DNA of 34,206 nucleotides from Candidatus Margulisbacteria bacterium GWF2_35_9 (GCA_001783275.1 MFRH01000023.1:9335-43540), one strand, 5' to 3'; shown: positions 12,723-34,206, counted from the stretch's first letter. A program made the numbers and translations. Notes: a model not told the origin generated them from the sequence alone.

Positions 12723-13301
12723 ATGGAAGTCCAACTAGATAAATTAATTGAAAGAATAAAAAATGAGGGGATAGATTCTGCTAATGGTCATGCAAATGAA
12801 ATAATAGAAAAAGCCAGAATGGAAGCGGTCTCTATTATTGAAAAAGCAAAGAGTGACGCTGAGGAAATGAAAATAAAATCTAAGAAAGAATCCGAAAATT
12901 TTCAAGTTAATACTGAAAATTCGATACGACAGGCTTCGAGGGATACAGTATTGGTTCTTAGAAATAAAATTCTTGAAATGTTCGATAAAGCGCTTAGTAA
13001 ACAAGTATCAATTGCGTTTAATGAAGCGTTTATGAAAGATTTAATTCTTAAAATCGTGAGCAATTGGACTGAAGGAAAAAATATTGAAGTGGTGGCTGGT
13101 TCAATTGATGTAGAAAAACTTAAACAAATGCTGGTTGGTGAGCTAAAACGCGATGCAATTGTTAAACTTGATAATAAGATTGGCAGTGGCTTTAGAATTA
13201 GTGTTCAAGGTGATAGCATTAGTTATGATATTACAGATGAAGCTATCATCGAGGCATTGAAAGTATTTTTAAATCCGAAGATAGCAGAATTATTGGGGTA
13301 G
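12723..13301 (+). CDS. atpE: V/A-type ATPase subunit E (peripheral stalk)
   Basis: This 192-residue protein has the family architecture: a charged N-terminal coiled coil (about 1-90, with AxxIIEKAxxEAxxIIEKAKSDAEEMK) and a compact C-terminal alpha/beta domain (about 100-190) ending SISYDITDEAIIEALKVFLNPKIAELL. Subunit E forms the peripheral stator stalk that holds the A3B3 head against the membrane sector. It is the first gene of a seven-gene operon. The start is supported by GAGGAGGG four bases upstream. The E-first order matches spirochaetal and chlamydial operons. The symbol follows V-ATPase naming and does not mean the F-type c subunit. Confidence 0.85.
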   Translation: MEVQLDKLIERIKNEGIDSANGHANEIIEKARMEAVSIIEKAKSDAEEMKIKSKKESENFQVNTENSIRQASRDTVLVLRNKILEMFDKALSKQVSIAFNEAFMKDLILKIVSNWTEGKNIEVVAGSIDVEKLKQMLVGELKRDAIVKLDNKIGSGFRISVQGDSISYDITDEAIIEALKVFLNPKIAELLG

Positions 13302-13305
13302 TTAA

Positions 13306-13812
13306 ATGGATAAGTATTATTATTTTGCAGCTCAATTACCAGGATTGATGTTCCAACAAAAAGAAAACATTCCTTCTATGATTTTTTTTAAGGAAGAAGC
13401 TGCTAAATGGCTTACTAAAGAAGATTTAAACATTCTAATGTCGGTCGATATAAACAATATAATGCAAAAGACTGGGTTTAAAATATTAGCTGAGTGTACT
13501 CAATTTGAATATGATTTAAGGAGCGAGCTAGCAAAATATCGTCAATCTGTTCATGAGGATTTTGAATATAAAATCAATTTGTTTCCTATGTCATTCATCA
13601 AAGAAGGAAATCCACTGGAAGTAGAATTACGGCTGTTAAAATACCGATGGGATTTTTATGAGGAAAAGCAGTTTGGCCATTATTCAGATATGACATATTT
13701 GGTTCTATACCATATGAAATTACAGGTTTTATGGAGAATTGAGTCATTTAATAAGGAAATAGGGCGGGGAAAGTTTCTAAATACATGCATGGTAGAACTG
13801 GCTGCTGCTTGA
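13306..13812 (+). CDS. DUF2764-family protein of the V-ATPase operon
   Basis: This 168-residue protein begins MDKYYYFAAQLPGLMF and sits between subunits E and A, four bases after E. A protein of this length, position and YYFxAxLPxL start is the DUF2764 member found in V-ATPase operons of spirochaetes, Chlamydiae and Bacteroidetes. It is soluble, with no signal peptide or membrane segment. It carries a repeated theme of acidic and aromatic helices (EFDYDLRSELAKYRQ, EVELRLLKYRWDFYEE). Its biochemical role is not established. In operons that lack subunit C it may take a stalk or coupling role, which is inference. The family call rests on context and on the N-terminus. Confidence 0.75.
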   Translation: MDKYYYFAAQLPGLMFQQKENIPSMIFFKEEAAKWLTKEDLNILMSVDINNIMQKTGFKILAECTQFEYDLRSELAKYRQSVHEDFEYKINLFPMSFIKEGNPLEVELRLLKYRWDFYEEKQFGHYSDMTYLVLYHMKLQVLWRIESFNKEIGRGKFLNTCMVELAAA

Positions 13813-13866
13813 GCAAAATAATATAAGTCAACACAAATAAGGGTTGTCTGTATTGAGGAGATAAAT

Positions 13867-15606
13867 ATGAGTACAAAAGGTAAGATAAATTCAATTAACG
13901 GTAACATGATAACAGTCATAGTAGATGGTCCGATTATTCAGAATGAACTTGGATTTGTTGTTCGAGGAGCTGAACGACTAAAGGCAGAAGTTATTAAAAT
14001 TACGGGTGATACTGCTTTTATGCAGGTTTATGAAATGACAAAGGGGCTAAAGATAGGTGATATAGTTGAATTTAGTGGAGAAATGCTATCTGTTCAGCTT
14101 GGGCCTGGAATTCTTTCTCAAGTGTATGACGGTCTACAGAACCCTTTGCCTGCTTTAGCAGAGGCTCATGGATTCTTTTTACCTAAAGGAGTAGTGTTGG
14201 ATGCAATTGATTTTAATAGAAGATGGCATTTTACTCCGTCCGTTAGTCAGGGAGATCAAATTTTAAAAGGTATGGCAGTAGGCAGTGTTCCAGAAGGAAT
14301 GTTTAAGCATATGATTATGGTTCCCTTTAATTTTAATGGGGAATATACAGTTGATTGGGTTGCAAATGAGGGCGATTATTGCGTGAAAGATCCAATCGCA
14401 GGGATTAAGGATTCAAAAGGGCATGTTACTCAGATTACTATGACGTTTGAATGGCCCGTGAAGGTTCCCATTAAAGCTTATGCGCAAAAGCATGTGCCGG
14501 TTGAACCGATGACGACTAAAGTAAGAATTGTTGATACTTTTTTCCCAATATCTAAAGGTGGAACATATTGTATTCCTGGGCCATTCGGAGCTGGAAAAAC
14601 TGTTATGCAGCAAATTACCAGTCGTTATGCAGAAGTTGATATTGTTATTATTGCTGCTTGTGGTGAAAGAGCTGGAGAAGTAGTTGAAACGCTTCGCGAG
14701 TTTCCTGAATTAATAGACCCTCGTACTGGAAAATCGTTAATGGAGAGAACCATTATTATTTGTAATACTTCTTCCATGCCAGTTGCAGCAAGAGAAGCAT
14801 CGGTTTATACGGCAGCAACATTGGGTGAGTATTATCGACAAATGGGATTAAATGTATTGTTACTTGCTGATTCTACTTCCAGATGGGCACAAGCCATGCG
14901 TGAAGTTTCAGGTCGTTTAGAAGAAATCCCAGGAGAAGAAGCCTTCCCAGCCTATTTAGAGTCTCGAATAGCAGAATTCTATGAGAGAGCAGGATATGTG
15001 GAACTTCATGATGGCCGATTTGGTAGTATGACGATTGGCGGAACAGTATCTCCAGCCGGAGGAAACTTTGAAGAGCCTGTAACACAGGCAACGTTAAAAG
15101 TTGTTGGTGGATTCCATGGCTTATCCAGAGAACGCTCAAATGCCAGAAAATTTCCTTCAATTGATCCCTTAGATAGTTGGTCCAAATATAAAGGAATTAT
15201 TTCTTCGGAAAAAGTAAAACAAGCGCATACAATTTTAAGTAAAAGTAATGATGTCCATCAAATGATGATGGTTGTTGGAGAAGAAGGAACGTCTGTTGAC
15301 GATTTTGTAACCTATTTGAAAGGTGACCTGTTGGATTCAGTTTACCTTCAACAGAACGGATACGATCCAGTTGATGCGGCCTGTGCTCCAGATAGACAAT
15401 CATATGTGTTTGACGTTATATACAAAATTATTATGGATTCTTATGTGTTTAATAATAAAGATGATGCACGTTCGTTTTTCGTAAAATTAAGACAGTATTT
15501 CATTGATTGGAATTATATTGAATTTAAAACGGATAAATTTAATGAGCAGGAAAATCAAATTGTGAATCATATAAAACAATCGGTTGCTCAAGAAGAGACA
15601 ATATAA
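13867..15606 (+). CDS. atpA: V/A-type ATPase catalytic subunit A
   Basis: This 579-residue catalytic subunit hydrolyses or makes ATP at the A-B interface. Visible motifs are the N-terminal beta-barrel ([13 protein letters not shown]), the family-specific insertion of about 110-200, the Walker A loop GPFGAGKT (238-245), [51 protein letters not shown] (Walker B region) and [15 protein letters not shown]. Length and motif order are normal. It starts 54 bases after the DUF2764 gene, with TGAGGAG upstream of the ATG. The B subunit gene follows after 31 bases. The genes in between and the order support the spirochaete/chlamydia-type complex. Confidence 0.97.
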
Positions 15607-15637
15607 ATTAAATAAAAAGAAAAGGACAAGAGAGCGA

Positions 15638-16933
15638 ATGAAAAAAGTATATAATAAAATTCTAAGTATCGTTGGTAATGTCATAACTGTTCGAGCTGAG
15701 GATGTTGCCTATGAGGAACTTGCGGAAGTGACGACATCTAGAGGCAAAACGCTTGCTCAGGTTATCAAATTGGAGGCGGATTTAGTTTCATTACAGGTGT
15801 TTTCAGGTTCAAAAGGTGTTTCAACAGATGATGAGGTTCGCTTTCTTGGCCATCCTATGCAAGTGACATTTTCTGAAAATATGTTAGGTAGAGTATTTGA
15901 TGGTTCAGGTCAGCCAAGAGATAAAGGGCCTTCCTTGACTGATAATATGATTGAAATAGCAGGTCCGTCAGTTAATCCTTCCAAACGAATAATTCCAAAA
16001 CGGATGATTCGAACCAATATTCCGATGATTGATGTATTTAACTCTCTGGTTGTTTCTCAAAAATTGCCGATATTTTCTGTATCTGGTGAGCCCTATAATG
16101 AACTTCTTGCCAGAATTGCGTTGCAAGCGGAAGTAGATATGATTGTTCTGGGTGGAATGGGATTAAAGTTTGATGAATATATGTATTTTAAGAATGAGCT
16201 TGAAAAAGGTGGCGCATTGAACCGATCGATATTTTTTATGCATACAGCATCTGACCCAGTTGTTGAGGGTTTGATGGTTCCTGATTTGTGTTTAGCTGTT
16301 GCTGAAAAATTTGCTTTAGCAGGAAAAGATGTTTTGGTTCTTTTAACTGATATGACTAACTTTGCAGATGCAATGAAAGAAATTGCAATTACGATGGAAC
16401 AGGTTCCATCCAATCGTGGTTATCCTGGTGACTTGTATTCACAGCTTGCATCTCGTTATGAAAAAGCGGTTGACTTTGACAATGCTGGGTCAATTACGAC
16501 CTTAGCCGTTACAACCATGCCAGGTGATGATGTCACTCATCCAGTCCCTGATAATACTGGGTATATTACAGAAGGTCAGTTTTATTTAAGGAATGGTCGA
16601 ATTGAACCTTTCGGGTCTTTAAGTCGATTGAAGCAACAGGTAAATGGCACAACAAGAAAAGACCATCGAGCTATTATGGATGGAATGATTCAATTGTATG
16701 CTCAGTATCTTGAAGCTGAAGAAAAGAGATCCATGGGATTTAGAATGACGGATTGGGATAGTAAACTTTTAAAATATGGTAGTCAATTTGAGGGAACAAT
16801 GATGGACTTAACATTAAATATTCCTCTCGAAGATGCTTTAGATAGAGGCTGGGAGATATTAGCGGATTGTTTTACAAAGGAAGAAACTGGTTTCCGATCC
16901 GAGCTTATCGAAGAGTTTTGGCCGACGAAATAG
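15638..16933 (+). CDS. atpB: V/A-type ATPase subunit B
   Basis: This 431-residue non-catalytic nucleotide-binding subunit alternates with A in the head ring. It has YEELAEV near the start, [19 protein letters not shown], a degenerate P-loop ([19 protein letters not shown]) as expected for [17 protein letters not shown], and [19 protein letters not shown] chose ATG 15638, preceded by AAGGACAAGAGAG; the frame stays open upstream into the end of atpA, but those residues (a lysine/arginine-rich tract) are not part of the family. This is the homologue of archaeal AtpB/NtpB, not the F-type a subunit. Confidence 0.96.
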
Positions 16934-16942
16934 AGCGAGAAG

Positions 16943-17554
16943 ATGGCAAAGATTAGATTAACAAAAAATGAGTATAAAAAGCAAAAGGATTCGCTAAAGC
17001 GATATCAGCGATATCTTCCGACATTAGAGTTGAAGAAAACACAATTGCTTGTTGAAATTCGTAGAATTCAGGATTCTATCGATCGTATTGAGAATGAAAT
17101 CGATATTCTTGAAAAAAATATTAATAGTTGGGTTGACTTATTTTCCGAGGATATTGATCTTCGAACTCTTTTTGAGATAAAAGAAATTAACCGATCTATT
17201 GGAAATATTGCCGGTAGTGATATCGAATTATTTGACGGAGTGGTATTTGAGAACAAACCCTATGATTATACACAGTATCCTTTATGGGTAGATCGTGGGG
17301 TTGTGGTTGTAAAGCAAATTATGGAGCTAAAGATTGAGCAGGACATTTTGCATAAACAACAAGAAATAATTAAAGAGGAATTGCGGGTTACCATTCAGCG
17401 TATAAACCTGTTTGATAAGGTTATGATCCCAAAATCTAAGAACAATATTAGAAAAATTAAAATATATCTGGGAGATATGGATACGGCTGCGGTGGTTCGT
17501 GGGAAGATTGCAAAAACAAAGGTTGAAAAGAAAAAAATGGAGAGAGCCGCATGA
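16943..17554 (+). CDS. atpD: V/A-type ATPase subunit D (central rotor shaft)
   Basis: This 203-residue protein has the expected long N- and C-terminal helices that make the antiparallel coiled coil of the central shaft: residues 1-60 (LTKNEYKKQKDSLKRYQRYLPTLELKK...) and 125-203, with a small middle domain. In the complex it turns inside the A3B3 head and transmits rotation to the K ring. It begins nine bases after atpB and overlaps subunit I by four bases (ATGA), so translation is coupled. Length is typical of the family. No subunit F or C gene accompanies it. Confidence 0.9.
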   Translation: MAKIRLTKNEYKKQKDSLKRYQRYLPTLELKKTQLLVEIRRIQDSIDRIENEIDILEKNINSWVDLFSEDIDLRTLFEIKEINRSIGNIAGSDIELFDGVVFENKPYDYTQYPLWVDRGVVVVKQIMELKIEQDILHKQQEIIKEELRVTIQRINLFDKVMIPKSKNNIRKIKIYLGDMDTAAVVRGKIAKTKVEKKKMERAA

Positions 17555-19323
17555 TTATTCCAATGGAGAAAGTAACCCTTTTTACAATCAAGACGCAGGT
17601 TTCGTCTGTTTTACACCAGTTGAGGAAACTTGGGGTTATTCATGTTGAGCAGATTAAGACTCCCTTATCTGCAAATGTTGGGACATTAGAAGATGAAATT
17701 ACGGATGTCAAAAATGCGTTAAGTCTTCTAAAAATGTATCCAGACATGAAAATGTTATCAGAGATTGACGATGTAACAAGTGCTGTTGAAGAAGTGCTAA
17801 TGCTAGATGATGAACGAACAGATCTGGAAAGAAAAAAAGAGTCATTATTAAAGCAGCAAGAGTGGTACAACGAATGGGGGAAAGTGTCATTAAATAGTAT
17901 AAAACATCTTGAGGAATCTGGTTTTTACGTCAAATTATATCAGGCACCTCGATCATTTATGGATAAAAATAAAGATAATCCCAATTTATTTGTTGTTAAT
18001 GAGGGAAAATTTGATTTAAAACTTGCTTTGATTAGTCGATCTCTTGAAGAAAAACTAGAGTTAAAAGAGGATCATCTCCCTGAAATGGAGTTCAAACAAG
18101 TTGAATCCGAATTAATTAGAGTTACACATAAAATCGATCGTATAGAAAGTGATTTTAAAGTCAGTGTTCAGTATGTAAATACTTTTGAAAAGTATCAAAA
18201 TCAATTAGTAAAACAGCTCGAGTTTGAAACTATCCGATTTGGAATGGGAGAAGAAGGTCTTCTTTGTTACATAAGAGGATATGTCCCGGTAGATCAGGTT
18301 AAAAAGATCAAAGAATATTGCGACACAAATGATTGTGGTTATATGTTTGAAGCGTGTACGGAGGAGGACAACCCTCCTGTACTAATAAAAAACAAGAGAT
18401 GGATAAACATTATCGCTCCTGTATTTAAATTTATGGGAACTGTACCCAATTATAATGAATTTGATATCAGTATGTGGTTCTTACTGTTTTTCGGTCTGTT
18501 TTTTGCAATGTTAATTGGTGATGCAGGTTATGGCGTGTTATTTGTAGTCCTGACATTTTTTGCAAGAAAAAAGTTTAAAAATGCTCCATCCGAACCTTTT
18601 TTCTTAATGTATGCGATGAGTGGTGCGACTATTTTCTGGGGAGCCATTACAGGGACTTGGTTTGGGGTTGAAAAAATAGCTCAATTACCAGTATTTAGTT
18701 CTCTGATTATTCCTTCAATTTCAAGTTTTGGAGTGGATAATAAAGAAAATATTATGCATTTATGTTTTTTTATTGGGGCTGTTCATTTAAGCATTGCACA
18801 TTTACTGTTGGCTTTCAGAGCCCGTAAATCTTTGCGTGCATTGGGGCAGATTGGTTGGGTAGGTATTGTCTGGGGACTTTATTTCGTTGCCCATCTTTTA
18901 GTCCTAAGTCAGCCGATTCCAATGATTGGGAAAGGGGCATTAATTATTGGCTTTAGTCTTGTTATTCTATTTGCAAATGCTCAGAAAAACATGGTGAAGG
19001 GTGCGTTGCTTTCTCTTTCGAATATTCCATTAAGTGCTATCAGTACTTTTTCAGATGTGGTATCTTATGTTCGATTATTTGCAGTTGGTTATGCCTCGGT
19101 TGTTGTTGCCGTGAGTTTTAATAATATGGCGATGGGAATCGGTTTTGGAAGTGTGTTTGCAACCTTGGGGGCTGTTTTTATACTTGTGATTGGCCATGGA
19201 CTTAATATAATATTAGGAGCAATGGCATTAATTGTTCATGGAGTACGACTTAATATGTTGGAATTTTCAGGTCATTTAGGAATGGAATGGTCTGGTAAAG
19301 AGTATGAACCATTTAAGGAATAA
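17551..19323 (+). CDS. atpI: V/A-type ATPase membrane subunit I (subunit a)
   Basis: This 590-residue stator membrane subunit conducts ions past the rotor. Residues 1-300 are the soluble arm, with long helices and the typical start MIIPMEKVTLFTIK; the remainder holds about seven or eight membrane helices. The first membrane helices contain the family signature LLFFGLFFAMLIGDAGYGVLF. The essential arginine is Arg508 in SDVVSYVRLFAVGYA, and the last helix includes IGHGLNIILGAMALIVHGVRLNMLEFSGH. The protein is slightly short, as are spirochaetal and chlamydial forms. It overlaps atpD by four bases and is followed by the K subunit after 17 bases. Confidence 0.95.
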   Translation: MIIPMEKVTLFTIKTQVSSVLHQLRKLGVIHVEQIKTPLSANVGTLEDEITDVKNALSLLKMYPDMKMLSEIDDVTSAVEEVLMLDDERTDLERKKESLLKQQEWYNEWGKVSLNSIKHLEESGFYVKLYQAPRSFMDKNKDNPNLFVVNEGKFDLKLALISRSLEEKLELKEDHLPEMEFKQVESELIRVTHKIDRIESDFKVSVQYVNTFEKYQNQLVKQLEFETIRFGMGEEGLLCYIRGYVPVDQVKKIKEYCDTNDCGYMFEACTEEDNPPVLIKNKRWINIIAPVFKFMGTVPNYNEFDISMWFLLFFGLFFAMLIGDAGYGVLFVVLTFFARKKFKNAPSEPFFLMYAMSGATIFWGAITGTWFGVEKIAQLPVFSSLIIPSISSFGVDNKENIMHLCFFIGAVHLSIAHLLLAFRARKSLRALGQIGWVGIVWGLYFVAHLLVLSQPIPMIGKGALIIGFSLVILFANAQKNMVKGALLSLSNIPLSAISTFSDVVSYVRLFAVGYASVVVAVSFNNMAMGIGFGSVFATLGAVFILVIGHGLNIILGAMALIVHGVRLNMLEFSGHLGMEWSGKEYEPFKE

Positions 19324-19340
19324 AAAAAAGGAGGGATAAA

Positions 19341-19781
19341 ATGATTGAAGGTTTAGGAGATATGGGGTTTTCGTTAGCATTTGCAGCAATAGGGTCTGCA
19401 CTGGGAACAGGAGTTGCTGGTATGGCGGCAATAGGTGCTTGGAAAAAGGCATTCGCAGCAAATAAAGTAGCGCCATTTATACTTATTGCGTTTGTTGGTG
19501 CACCACTTTCGCAAACGATTTACGGAATGATTCTTGGTGGATCCATTCGAGCCGCTAACTTACCATCCAGCATGTATGTGTATCAAATGATTTTAGGTGC
19601 TGTCGCAGGACTTGCAATGGGCGTAAGTGCGTTTTATCAGGGCAAAGCTGGAGCAAGAGCTGCTGATGCGTTAGCAGAAACAGGCAAAGGGTTTGGAAAC
19701 TACATTATGGTTCTGGGCGTAATTGAAACTGTTGCTCTATTCGTTATGGTATTTGCTGGTATGGCAATTCCAAAAGGATAA
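19341..19781 (+). CDS. atpK: V/A-type ATPase proteolipid subunit K, possible Na+ type
   Basis: This 146-residue rotor-ring subunit has four membrane helices in two hairpins. Gly-rich helix 1 is IGSALGTGVAGMAAIGAW, helix 2 contains GAPLSQTIYG, helix 3 precedes YQGKAGARAADA and helix 4 contains the ion-binding Glu129 (VLGVIETVALFVMVFAG). Only the second hairpin has the acidic residue. Ser57-Gln58, Gln100 and Glu129 correspond to Thr64-Gln65, Gln110 and Glu139, the Na+ ligands of Enterococcus hirae NtpK. This suggests Na+ rather than H+ transport, but that is inferred from alignment by eye. A strong ribosome site (GGAGGG) precedes the ATG. It is the last gene of the operon. Confidence 0.93.
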   Translation: MIEGLGDMGFSLAFAAIGSALGTGVAGMAAIGAWKKAFAANKVAPFILIAFVGAPLSQTIYGMILGGSIRAANLPSSMYVYQMILGAVAGLAMGVSAFYQGKAGARAADALAETGKGFGNYIMVLGVIETVALFVMVFAGMAIPKG

Positions 19782-31544: not shown

Positions 31545-31970
31545 ATGAAAAAAATATTAATATATCTTCTAGGAATAATCTATTTCCCAATGGCAATAAT
31601 CTGGTCTATTCTTTTTGGAATAATTATTGGCATACTTGGGAAAATGCTTTCTAATTTTTTGGATTATAAATTCTTAGTTAAAAGCTATCTAAGAGACTGG
31701 AAATATTACCCTCAAAAAAGCTACAAGCAATATATCCATATGCTGGCTAAAGAAAGAACAAAAGATAAGTTCGATCCATTTGTCATCACCGCCATTATTA
31801 ACGACACAAAGTATCTTCATCCAAAAGAACCATTTCCATCTTTTATGATACTCGTACTCACTATGTGGCATCTGTTCATGTTGCCGTTTCGTTGTGCAAA
31901 AGGGTTGATCGATGGCCCTATCATTATTTTTGAAAGTTGTAGAGACATTTGGGAAAAGATGATACGTTAG
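31545..31970 (+). CDS. Small inner-membrane protein of unknown function
   Basis: This 141-residue protein has two hydrophobic helical stretches: 4-36 (ILIYLLGIIYFPMAIIWSILFGIIIGILG) and about 100-115 (FMILVLTMWHLFMLPF). The segment between them (about 45-95) is charged and Tyr/Lys-rich. A strong ribosome site (GGAGG, 31533-31537) precedes the ATG, supporting a real gene. I recognise no family. It sits between the serA terminator and a response-regulator gene, with 37 bases to the latter; a sensor-accessory role is only a contextual guess. Confidence 0.6.
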   Translation: MKKILIYLLGIIYFPMAIIWSILFGIIIGILGKMLSNFLDYKFLVKSYLRDWKYYPQKSYKQYIHMLAKERTKDKFDPFVITAIINDTKYLHPKEPFPSFMILVLTMWHLFMLPFRCAKGLIDGPIIIFESCRDIWEKMIR

Positions 31971-32007: not shown

Positions 32008-32511
32008 ATGGCACAGGAAAAAACATTAATAATGGTGGTAGAAGATGAAGTGATACAAGCTCAATATATTGCTGAAACCATAGTGGCAACAAATAGTTAT
32101 ACTCCTGTTATTGCAAATAATGGCTTACAAGCTTTTGAATTAATCAAAAATAATAAAACCTTTTTTGGTTTTGGAGAAAATAAAATAAAGGCGATACTCT
32201 TAGATATAAACATGCCGGAAATGAATGGAATTGAATTTTTGGAAAAGTTAAGAGCCATGGAGAAAAAGAATACTTTCTCGAGATTTACTCCGGTGATTGT
32301 TATCACTGCCCATGAAGAGCCAGAATATATTGAAGATGCAACACATCCGGTAAAAGGAATGGTTGCTGCATATTTAAAGAAACCCTTTAATGAAACTGAG
32401 TTAAAGGATTTGCTGGATAAAATATTGCAAAATATGGACGCAGAAAATCTAATAGAAGAAACCAGAAAAGAGAGTTATAAAAGAGTCGAGCAACTTAAAA
32501 GCAAAAAGTAA
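32008..32511 (+). CDS. Stand-alone response-regulator receiver protein
   Basis: This 167-residue protein is a CheY-like receiver domain with phosphoacceptor Asp66 (ILLDINMPEMNG), acidic Glu12/Asp13 (VVEDE), Thr100 (VIVITAHE) and the conserved Lys125-Pro126 (YLKKPF). A charged tail (about 135-167, IEETRKESYKRVEQLKSKK) follows, with no DNA-binding or enzymatic output domain. It must act by protein contact or as a phosphorelay intermediate. No partner kinase is complete in the window; the nearest candidate is the truncated membrane protein at the right edge. The ribosome site AAAGGAGAG precedes the ATG. Confidence 0.93.
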   Translation: MAQEKTLIMVVEDEVIQAQYIAETIVATNSYTPVIANNGLQAFELIKNNKTFFGFGENKIKAILLDINMPEMNGIEFLEKLRAMEKKNTFSRFTPVIVITAHEEPEYIEDATHPVKGMVAAYLKKPFNETELKDLLDKILQNMDAENLIEETRKESYKRVEQLKSKK

Positions 32512-32569
32512 TTTTTTATAACGATTAGTTTCTTAAATATCAATAACTACAAATTCTTGCCATAATGAG

Positions 32570-32575
32570 TATAAT
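32570..32575 (+). promoter_or_regulatory. -10 box upstream of the alpha-oxoamine synthase gene
   Basis: A perfect TATAAT lies 70 bases before the ATG. The -35 position (TACAAA) is a poor match, so only the -10 is claimed. It would make the synthase and the membrane protein separately controllable from the response regulator. Confidence 0.4.
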
Positions 32576-32645
32576 GTAAGTATTAAATGCAATTTTTGCT
32601 GTATAAGTACGATATATTAGTATCAATCTAATATAGGGGAAAAGC

Positions 32646-34016
32646 ATGGGAAAACAAAAATTAGAGAATGATTTAAAAAGACAAACAATTTTAGGAAATC
32701 CAGATATTCAAGTTAAACAAAACAATAATAATCAAGAATCAATTCAAGACTTATTAGATGATAATATACCAATTGGTTTATTACATTTAGCTTTATATAA
32801 AAACGGTATAGGTAGTTTAAGTGAAAAAAGTTCTTGGATTAGTAAAGCAATTCAAGACCAAAAAAATAAGGGTTTATTCCCTTATGATCGATACATAAAA
32901 AATGGAAGCAATATTTCTGGACTTATTGTAGATGATGTAACAAATAAGGAAAAAGAATGTGTTATATGGACAAATAACCTTTATCTTGGATTAAATCGGG
33001 ATGAAAGAGTAATTAAAGCAACAAATGAAGCAACTATTAAATATGGTACAGGAAGTGGAACCTCAGCATTATCTGGTGGTTTCTGTGAATTACATGAGGC
33101 CCTAAGAAATAAACTAAAACAAGTTACAGGGAAAGAAGATGCCATAATATTTAGTACAGGTTTTACAACAAATTTTGGCGTTATAAGTTCTATTGCCTCA
33201 AACGGAGACCTTATATTATTCGATCGTGATTGTCATGCAAGTATTATTAATGGCGCATCTTTTTCAAATGCAGAAATGAGAAGTTTTAAACATAATGATG
33301 TCATTGATTTAGAGAAGAAAATTAAAAAATATTCGGCATCAAAAAACAATATATTTGTATTAATAGAAACAGTTTATTCTATGACCGGAGAAGAGGCTCC
33401 TTTAAAAGAGATCGTTGATTTAAAAAATAAATACGATTTTTATTTATATACTGATGAAGCACACTCATTTGGCTTGTATGGGGATAAGTTTAGTTCATAT
33501 TCCAAATATAAAGGACTATCAGATAATGTTGATTTTGTAATGAGTACTTTTTCTAAGACGACTGCATCCATTGGTGGTTTTGTTTCAGCAAAAAAAGAGT
33601 TTATTGATTATATAAAAACTAAATCAAGTCCCTACTTATTTCAAGCTACTTTACCCCCAGCCACTGTTGCAACTATTTTAAGTACGATTGAAATTGTTGA
33701 TCAAGAACCGGAACATAAGCGTAATTTATGGAGGAATACTAAATATATTAGATCAAGATTGAAAAATCTGGGGTTTAATCTTGGTGATGGGACAAGTCCA
33801 GTTATTTCGATTTATATTCTAGATCCGAATATTTTAGGGAATGTTTGTAAAGAAATGTATAATGAAGGTATTTTTACAAACTGGGTAGCATATCCTATGG
33901 TTAGTATAAATAAGGGGCGGCTCAGATTGCTAGTAACAGCCAGACACTCTAAAACGCAATTAGATAAAACAATAAAGGTTTTAGAACTTTTAGGTAATAA
34001 ATATAAAATTATATGA
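32646..34016 (+). CDS. Alpha-oxoamine synthase family PLP enzyme (BioF/KBL/CqsA-like)
   Basis: This 456-residue PLP-dependent enzyme condenses an acyl-CoA or acyl thioester with an amino acid with loss of CO2. Family motifs: GTGSGTSALSGGFCELHEALRNKL, His197 stacking on PLP (FDRDCHASIING), Asp270 (YTDEAHSFGLYG) and Schiff-base Lys304 (STFSKTTASIGGFVSAKK). It is about 60 residues longer than BioF, KBL or CqsA (near 390), because of an N-terminal extension of mostly polar helices (1-65). No biotin or threonine-catabolism gene is nearby. It overlaps the next membrane-protein gene by four bases. Family confidence is high; the substrate is unknown. Autoinducer synthesis, sphingoid-base-like lipid synthesis or 2-amino-3-ketobutyrate cleavage are all possible. 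Confidence 0.85.
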   Translation: MGKQKLENDLKRQTILGNPDIQVKQNNNNQESIQDLLDDNIPIGLLHLALYKNGIGSLSEKSSWISKAIQDQKNKGLFPYDRYIKNGSNISGLIVDDVTNKEKECVIWTNNLYLGLNRDERVIKATNEATIKYGTGSGTSALSGGFCELHEALRNKLKQVTGKEDAIIFSTGFTTNFGVISSIASNGDLILFDRDCHASIINGASFSNAEMRSFKHNDVIDLEKKIKKYSASKNNIFVLIETVYSMTGEEAPLKEIVDLKNKYDFYLYTDEAHSFGLYGDKFSSYSKYKGLSDNVDFVMSTFSKTTASIGGFVSAKKEFIDYIKTKSSPYLFQATLPPATVATILSTIEIVDQEPEHKRNLWRNTKYIRSRLKNLGFNLGDGTSPVISIYILDPNILGNVCKEMYNEGIFTNWVAYPMVSINKGRLRLLVTARHSKTQLDKTIKVLELLGNKYKII

Positions 34017-34206
34017 TCACGATTTTTGTTTTATTATCAAGGATTTCACCTCTAATTGCCACCATTATAAATATAATTATTGGGTTCCTTGTTCTTTTAA
34101 AAAGCAAGAATAAACAACAAGGTATTTGGTTTTTCCTATTTAATCTATTGCTCTCTATTTGGTCTTATAGTTGTTTTATACAAAGTACTTTCAATAATCA
34201 ATATTT
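34013..34206 (+). CDS. Multi-pass membrane protein, probable 7TM sensor N-terminus (partial)
   Basis: The frame from ATG 34013 is open to the end of the window (64 codons). It encodes MITIFVLLSRISPLIATIIN and onward: a first membrane helix to about residue 26, a basic KSKNKQQG turn and a second helix (GIWFFLFNLLLSIWSYSCF). The layout, with a helix, basic loop, then a Trp/Ser-ending second helix, is that of N-terminal 7TM sensor regions of histidine kinases and diguanylate cyclases. It starts in the ATGA overlap with the alpha-oxoamine synthase stop, so both are translated together. The output domain lies beyond the edge; a transporter or acyltransferase cannot be excluded. Confidence 0.55.
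   Translation, partial: MITIFVLLSRISPLIATIINIIIGFLVLLKSKNKQQGIWFFLFNLLLSIWSYSCFIQSTFNNQY

Follow-up and report, generated by a model that had tools for sequence, protein, structure and literature searches.

Known signal synthases include the alpha-oxoamine synthases (AOS) CqsA and LqsA, KAS III-like enzymes (PqsD, PpyS and DarB) and LuxI-fold acyltransferases. To our knowledge, quorum-sensing systems of the Cqs, Lqs and Phc kinds have been described in proteobacteria. In CqsA/CqsS of Vibrio and LqsA/LqsS/LqsR of Legionella an AOS-family enzyme is encoded beside a membrane sensor kinase. The genes cqsA/cqsS and lqsA/lqsS are cognate pairs, and the lqs locus also carries a stand-alone response regulator, lqsR, which is convergent with lqsS (PMC3376566). 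In the Phc system of Ralstonia the signal is a 3-hydroxy fatty acid methyl ester: PhcB is the methyltransferase that makes methyl 3-hydroxymyristate, PhcS is a sensor kinase, PhcR is a protein with a receiver and a histidine kinase, and PhcQ is a receiver lacking a DNA-binding site (PMC8578825).

The locus described here lies at the end of the window, the whole stretch of DNA analysed (34,206 bases), which corresponds to bases 9335-43540 of contig C23 (43,540 bases) in a genome of 2.35 Mb, 100 contigs and 87% completeness. The last base of the window is also the end of the contig. Genomes, contigs and loci are given below as G, C and L numbers, the window genome being G000. Three genes follow one another on the plus strand: a receiver-only response regulator at 32008-32511 (167 aa, Response_reg E 7e-18), an AOS at 32646-34016 (456 aa, Aminotran_1_2 E 1e-46, PLP lysine Lys304) and, at 34013-34206, the initial 64 codons of a sensor of HisKA_7TM type, assigned from its similarity to proteins of C14 and G005 and cut by the contig end. 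Re-reading of the ORFs and domain searches confirmed these calls and coordinates as first annotated, including the position of the regulator, which has no output domain, just upstream of the synthase. The four-base overlap reported between the synthase and the membrane protein is exactly ATGA (34013-34016), the synthase stop and the sensor start sharing these bases as they do in the related locus of G051, and translational coupling of the two genes through this overlap is likely. Two other features of the window may be recorded. A small membrane-like protein of 141 aa (31545-31970), with no Pfam or NCBIfam match, lies between a PGDH-like gene and the receiver, and a gene cluster at 12723-19781 reads, from its ORF translations, as a V/A-type ATPase.

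The arrangement resembles that of the Cqs and Lqs loci, with an AOS-family enzyme beside a membrane sensor, and includes a stand-alone regulator as lqs does. It differs from both in its synthase, which belongs to a separate N-extended clade nearer by score to serine palmitoyltransferase (SPT), and in its type of sensor, which is HisKA_7TM by the domain assignment of its relatives; the receiver differs from LqsR in being without the long extra regions described for that protein. The correspondence with Phc is one of architecture. An enzyme, a kinase, a receiver-histidine-kinase protein and a receiver-only protein are found there as in G005 and the window, the receiver-HATPase protein of G005 being PhcR-like and the window receiver PhcQ-like, although the window enzyme is an AOS and not a PhcB-type methyltransferase.

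The reading we lean towards, with a little better than even confidence, is that the locus encodes one pair of synthase and 7TM receptor-kinase for an acyl-derived signal, the hydrophobic product of the enzyme being detected by the co-translated kinase, which signals to the receiver. This reading is based on the gene order, the overlap, the domains of the relatives, the intact residues at the catalytic, phospho-acceptor and receiver sites and the repeated finding of this gene order; the product, ligand binding, phosphotransfer and secretion are putative steps proposed from sequence. The AOS would condense an acyl thioester with an amino acid (or a SAM-like amine) by PLP chemistry, giving a hydrophobic alpha-amino-ketone or a derivative of one. 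This product, made by the cell itself or by its neighbours, would bind the 7TM domain of the co-translated sensor, which would shift its kinase/phosphatase activity (as judged from relatives carrying HisKA/HATPase_c) and pass phosphate to the stand-alone receiver. Because the receiver has no output domain, it would work through contact with other proteins or as part of a phosphorelay. Such a module would work like CqsA/CqsS, LqsA/LqsS/LqsR and PhcB/PhcS/PhcR/PhcQ, with another receptor domain and another branch of synthase. Elsewhere in the phylum the same 7TM kinases are paired with many other, mostly acyl-modifying, enzymes.

Family and phylogeny of the synthase

The window enzyme has the PLP fold and the conserved Lys, Asp and His of the AOS superfamily, retaining PLP Lys304, Asp270, His197, His273 and Arg427. 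It matches every AOS model, each below its cut-off. The SPT models score best, with 342 bits for the Bacteroidota-type NF047600 (cut-off 640) and 327 bits for NF047599 (cut-off 500), so that neither curated SPT cut-off is reached; the KBL, BioF and ALAS models give 304, 302 and 236 bits. With the LqsA/CqsA-type model NF005526 the score is 188 bits against a cut-off of 428, which places the enzyme outside that family, and it is 23% identical to CqsA, whose reference sequence was checked against PDB entries. The closest solved structure, both by profile (341 bits) and by fold, is the SPT of Sphingobacterium (3a2b / 8guh), which has the same PLP lysine, Asp and His and 36% identity but is without such an N-terminal extension. 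In the window enzyme the extension covers about residues 1-66 (32646-32843), the family models beginning at ~residue 60-100, and residues 1-37 are predicted to be disordered (model pLDDT under 50).

This form of the AOS was found at E < 1e-230 in 4 of the 74 genomes of the phylum, the next best match being at 1e-99. Its nearest relatives found outside the phylum are on plasmids of Rhizobium rhizoryzae (44%) and Photobacterium damselae (38%); both genes (L084 7974-9260 and L085 7995-9302) are solitary, with no sensor nearby. One of these plasmids is phage-plasmid-like (holin, lysozyme, ParA). Among 296 Nitrospirota and 396 Bacteroidota genomes there was no close relative above ~370 bits, where the clade's plasmid members score ~700. 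A contig search with the single AOS protein returned only two distant AOS, the viral contigs searched gave no match, and the phage records gave weaker matches only, largely KBL/BioF where annotated.

In a tree that included CqsA, SPT, BioF, KBL and ALAS, the six AOS comprising the phylum form and the plasmid relatives group as a single clade with an SH-aLRT support of 99, placed in the SPT-like half. CqsA lies on a long separate branch outside this clade, and the window AOS is outside the BioF, KBL and ALAS groups. The initial annotation had suggested a longer, unrelated branch: the separate clade stands, and the attempt to place it firmly beside CqsA or SPT failed, AU tests rejecting neither its union with CqsA (p 0.44) nor that with Bacteroidota SPT (p 0.28). 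We take the window AOS on these phylogenetic data to be a distinct N-extended branch of the family, with a deep position that the AU tests do not settle. No bio, tdh or hem genes were recognised beside it, in agreement with the earlier remark that no biotin or threonine genes explain the enzyme. A grouping with BioF or KBL among genes of the matching pathway, named in the same annotation as evidence against a signalling role, is likewise not what was found, the tree placing the enzyme outside these groups and no such pathway genes being recognised next to it.

These data bear directly on whether the locus is a true alpha-hydroxyketone quorum-sensing system, in which the AOS would make a CAI-1/LAI-1-like ketone from the substrates of CqsA. 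An AOS-family enzyme, a sensor and a receiver are together as in lqs (PMC3376566), and a sister relation to CqsA is compatible with the AU test. Against this are the score to the LqsA/CqsA-type model, far under that to SPT, the low identity to CqsA, the place of the enzyme in the SPT-like half of the tree and the HisKA_7TM type of the sensor. We regard this explanation as improbable, and the specific assignment of the module to the alpha-hydroxyketone type in the initial annotation is not supported.

The sensor, the receiver and their recurrence beside AOS genes

The 64 residues of the window sensor alone give no significant Pfam or NCBIfam match. They share 63% identity with the N-terminus of a 548-aa HisKA_7TM protein encoded on contig C14 of the same genome and align with the start of a 790-aa 7TM kinase of G005 (33%, E 2e-11), which has HisKA_7TM (26 bits, just below the Pfam cut-off) and HATPase_c. 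Against Pfam HisKA_7TM (PF16927), full-length relatives reach the cut-off or come near it, complete sensors of related loci match this domain, and kinase regions are seen in the counterparts from G005, G051 and G019. The window protein is thus supported as the start of a HisKA_7TM-type sensor, which bears out the original description of its first 64 codons as resembling a 7TM sensor; the relatives found are of sensor type, where a transporter or lipid enzyme would have spoken against a signalling locus. Because the C14 relative is without an ATPase domain, we infer the kinase nature of the window sensor and do not read it directly.

An AlphaFold model of the C14 7TM domain (L080 5117-5836; 57 relatives) has seven helices with a pLDDT of 93 and predicts a beta hairpin between helices 4 and 5. 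Its top PDB matches in Foldseek are GPCRs, all weak (best E 5e-4), with TM about 0.4-0.6 and rmsd 5-8 A, and the predicted domain weakly resembles GPCRs in overall topology. In L100, L101, L103, L104 and L106, from several genomes, a 7TM protein, mostly of ~540 aa, overlaps the start of what reads as recO, possibly a different, housekeeping use of the 7TM domain.

The window receiver keeps the receiver Asp (D66), Thr (T100) and Lys (K124) and belongs to a subfamily marked by an insert around 'NKTFFGFGENKIKAILLDI'. This subfamily has 66 members in 32 genomes, and 31 of the 66 have a 7TM kinase gene no more than 3.5 kb away, in most cases in convergent orientation. Members are also found beside AOS genes in G030, G051 and G019, that of G030 being 36% identical to the window receiver.

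The earlier suggestion of a synthase, a membrane sensor and a receiver acting together is supported by repeated synteny. In G000 (the window), G005, G019, G038 and G051, five members of the phylum, a 7TM sensor gene comes immediately after that of an AOS, and the same receiver subfamily accompanies the pair in G000, G019 and G051. In G005, of the same order, the genes run receiver-HATPase, orthologous AOS and 790-aa 7TM kinase, with 3 nt between the last two. This kinase is the sole HisKA_7TM gene at E <= 1e-5 in 1.8 Mb, and its position 3 nt behind the N-extended AOS indicates that the adjacency of synthase and sensor is not due to chance. In G051, from another family, the gene of a 398-aa AOS shares 4 nt with that of a 649-aa 7TM kinase and a receiver-only gene is convergent; in G019, which belongs to the family of G051 and not to that of the window, the AOS is likewise followed by a 7TM kinase and a convergent receiver. 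In G038 two bases separate a 556-aa AOS from the 7TM protein that follows it, whose end is SpoIIE-like (L041 9816-11912, assigned by reading the sequence), and three divergent 7TM/kinase genes lie beside the pair. G030 has an AOS followed by a receiver and then the contig end. The synteny of G051, G019, G038, G030 and G005 therefore indicates that different branches of AOS have repeatedly been joined to the same families of sensor and receiver. Where the scan of the phylum covered BioF/KBL-like AOS loci, it found no 7TM neighbour. In the L041 protein the 7TM domain is joined to an apparent SpoIIE-type phosphatase in place of a kinase.

The linkage also weighs on another explanation of the enzyme, an SPT-like step in membrane-lipid synthesis that happens to lie beside an unrelated two-component gene pair. 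That its best family and structure matches are SPTs would agree with this, as would the solitary relatives, namely the AOS of G002, beside which no sensor was found, and the two plasmid genes. That AOS genes of different branches repeatedly overlap 7TM sensor genes or lie close to them, in five genomes of the phylum, argues the other way, no other sphingolipid-type genes were recognised beside the window AOS, and we consider the explanation very improbable. For the signal reading, the same solitary genes count as points against it, together with the lack of an output domain in the receiver, the truncation of the sensor at 64 residues and the presence, ahead of some 7TM kinases, of enzymes not known as signal synthases.

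Biosynthetic enzymes ahead of HisKA_7TM kinases

The AOS is one of many enzymes found in this position. We surveyed 104 distinct HisKA_7TM genes of the phylum, taking the same-strand gene that ends close to the sensor start, and 78 of them have such a gene. Acyl-thioester enzymes account for 34 of the 78: seven KAS III, two KAS II, four AOS (the window excluded), six NAD_binding_4 reductases, five hotdog thioesterases, four LuxD-type acyltransferases (with methyltransferase domains), four acyl-reductase-like proteins and two aldehyde dehydrogenases. In a broader sense 54 of the 78 are biosynthetic, the classes added being methyltransferases, other PLP enzymes, HAD, NRPS, PKS-DH, PlsC, FeeM-like GNAT, HMG-CoA reductase and a hydrolase; a few classes (e.g. 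KAS II, PlsC and the C34 HAD) were assigned by reading the sequence. As a control, 10 genes upstream of non-7TM kinases in the window genome comprised response regulators, HDOD, MCP, Crp, NMT1, TPR, NlpC and one 2-hydroxyacid dehydrogenase, that is, no acyl-thioester enzyme and one biosynthetic enzyme. The differences correspond to Fisher p values of 0.005 (34/78 against 0/10) and 0.0005 (54/78 against 1/10). Both tests count orthologues as if they were independent, which they are not, and both use a small control set taken from a single genome.

The window genome itself contains three further clusters of 7TM and enzyme genes, on C14, C15 and C34, located by searches. On C14 (L080 466-8654) the genes, all on one strand, encode an HTH-receiver protein, a 672-aa 7TM kinase (containing a masked stretch), the 548-aa 7TM protein, a thioester reductase and, preceded by this reductase, a 787-aa 7TM kinase. 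On C15 (L147 2381-9079) an NRPS lies 10 nt ahead of a 7TM kinase, and on C34 (L148 15-3557) a HAD-like hydrolase and a PlsC-like acyltransferase abut one. Strong 7TM matches were also found in 38 of 118 Nitrospirota genomes, where the genes abutting the best kinases upstream encode a LuxD-type acyltransferase-methyltransferase, an ALDH, a methyltransferase, an HMG-CoA reductase and an acyl-reductase-like protein. Thus, in the phylum and in Nitrospirota the gene immediately ahead of a HisKA_7TM kinase habitually encodes a biosynthetic enzyme.

Among the enzymes encoded upstream, six are methyltransferases or resemble them and carry the PhcB motif KP[LMH]G[YF]xGD; no specific NCBIfam name was found for them. 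One matches (E 5e-27) a Paraburkholderia methyltransferase whose gene, on a Paraburkholderia graminis plasmid (L229 5434-9809), is followed after 1 nt by a kinase and then by two receivers, a layout like that of phcBSRQ.

The main rival to the signal reading is metabolic feedback, in which the 7TM kinase would sense an intracellular or membrane lipid intermediate and regulate lipid metabolism, the enzyme being its target or a pathway neighbour and not the producer of a signal between cells. General lipid and isoprenoid enzymes (KAS II, KAS III, thioesterases, HMG-CoA reductase) are indeed among those upstream, and no exporter or quorum regulator adjoins the AOS loci read. NAD synthase and QueC are also encoded ahead of HisKA_7TM kinases, and we know of no role for these two or for HMG-CoA reductase as signal synthases. 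Feedback accounts less readily for enzyme families that change between loci around a constant receptor and receiver, for the LuxD-like and PhcB-motif enzymes among them, and for several enzyme-7TM pairs within one genome. We judge it unlikely, though a serious contender.

Returning to a self-made signal, pairs of synthase and 7TM receptor-kinase apparently form a large and undescribed family of lipid-derived signal-receptor modules. In the literature searched, outside which many subscription papers fall, HisKA_7TM is named only as a sensor domain, and no account of its pairing with acyl enzymes was found. We propose more tentatively, at somewhat less than even odds, that the HisKA_7TM kinases form a large class of bacterial receptors whose signals are made by the bacteria themselves and derive mostly from fatty acyl groups. 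Each kinase would be coupled in translation to a synthase of its own, from one of a dozen enzyme families, and provided with a dedicated receiver, so that a genome with several pairs would have several chemical channels. If true, the neighbouring enzyme would point the chemist to the ligand of each kinase, and we know of no ligand for any of them. Dozens of receptors in uncultured phyla would become testable by co-expression of two genes, quorum-sensing-like chemistry (the products of AOS, KAS III, methyltransferases and acyl-reductases) would extend beyond proteobacteria, and synthases would have been swapped around one type of receptor. Signalling by synthase and sensor is already known, and the enzyme repertoire around the 7TM kinases is the more surprising part.

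A short motif, NPDIQV, within the N-terminal extension of the window AOS (32697-32714) also occurs in the N-terminal part of unrelated proteins from the same order. The pattern NPD[IV][KQ][IVM] has 23 matches in seven same-order genomes and its reverse none, so that it is enriched in the order of the window organism, and many matches sit 10-45 residues from the protein start; sites include L148 (near 87-103), L116, L150, L261, L269, L272, L273, L277 and L283. We rejected NPD[IV][KQ] as a docking tag specific to 7TM partners, the motif being present also on proteins with no detected 7TM neighbour, and it is perhaps a docking or sorting tag. In G036, two apparently unrelated proteins encoded before 7TM kinases (L192 1352-2509 and L195 1720-2481) have identical first 26 residues (MQTEEQNSVTQIQDIQEIANKPVIKA).
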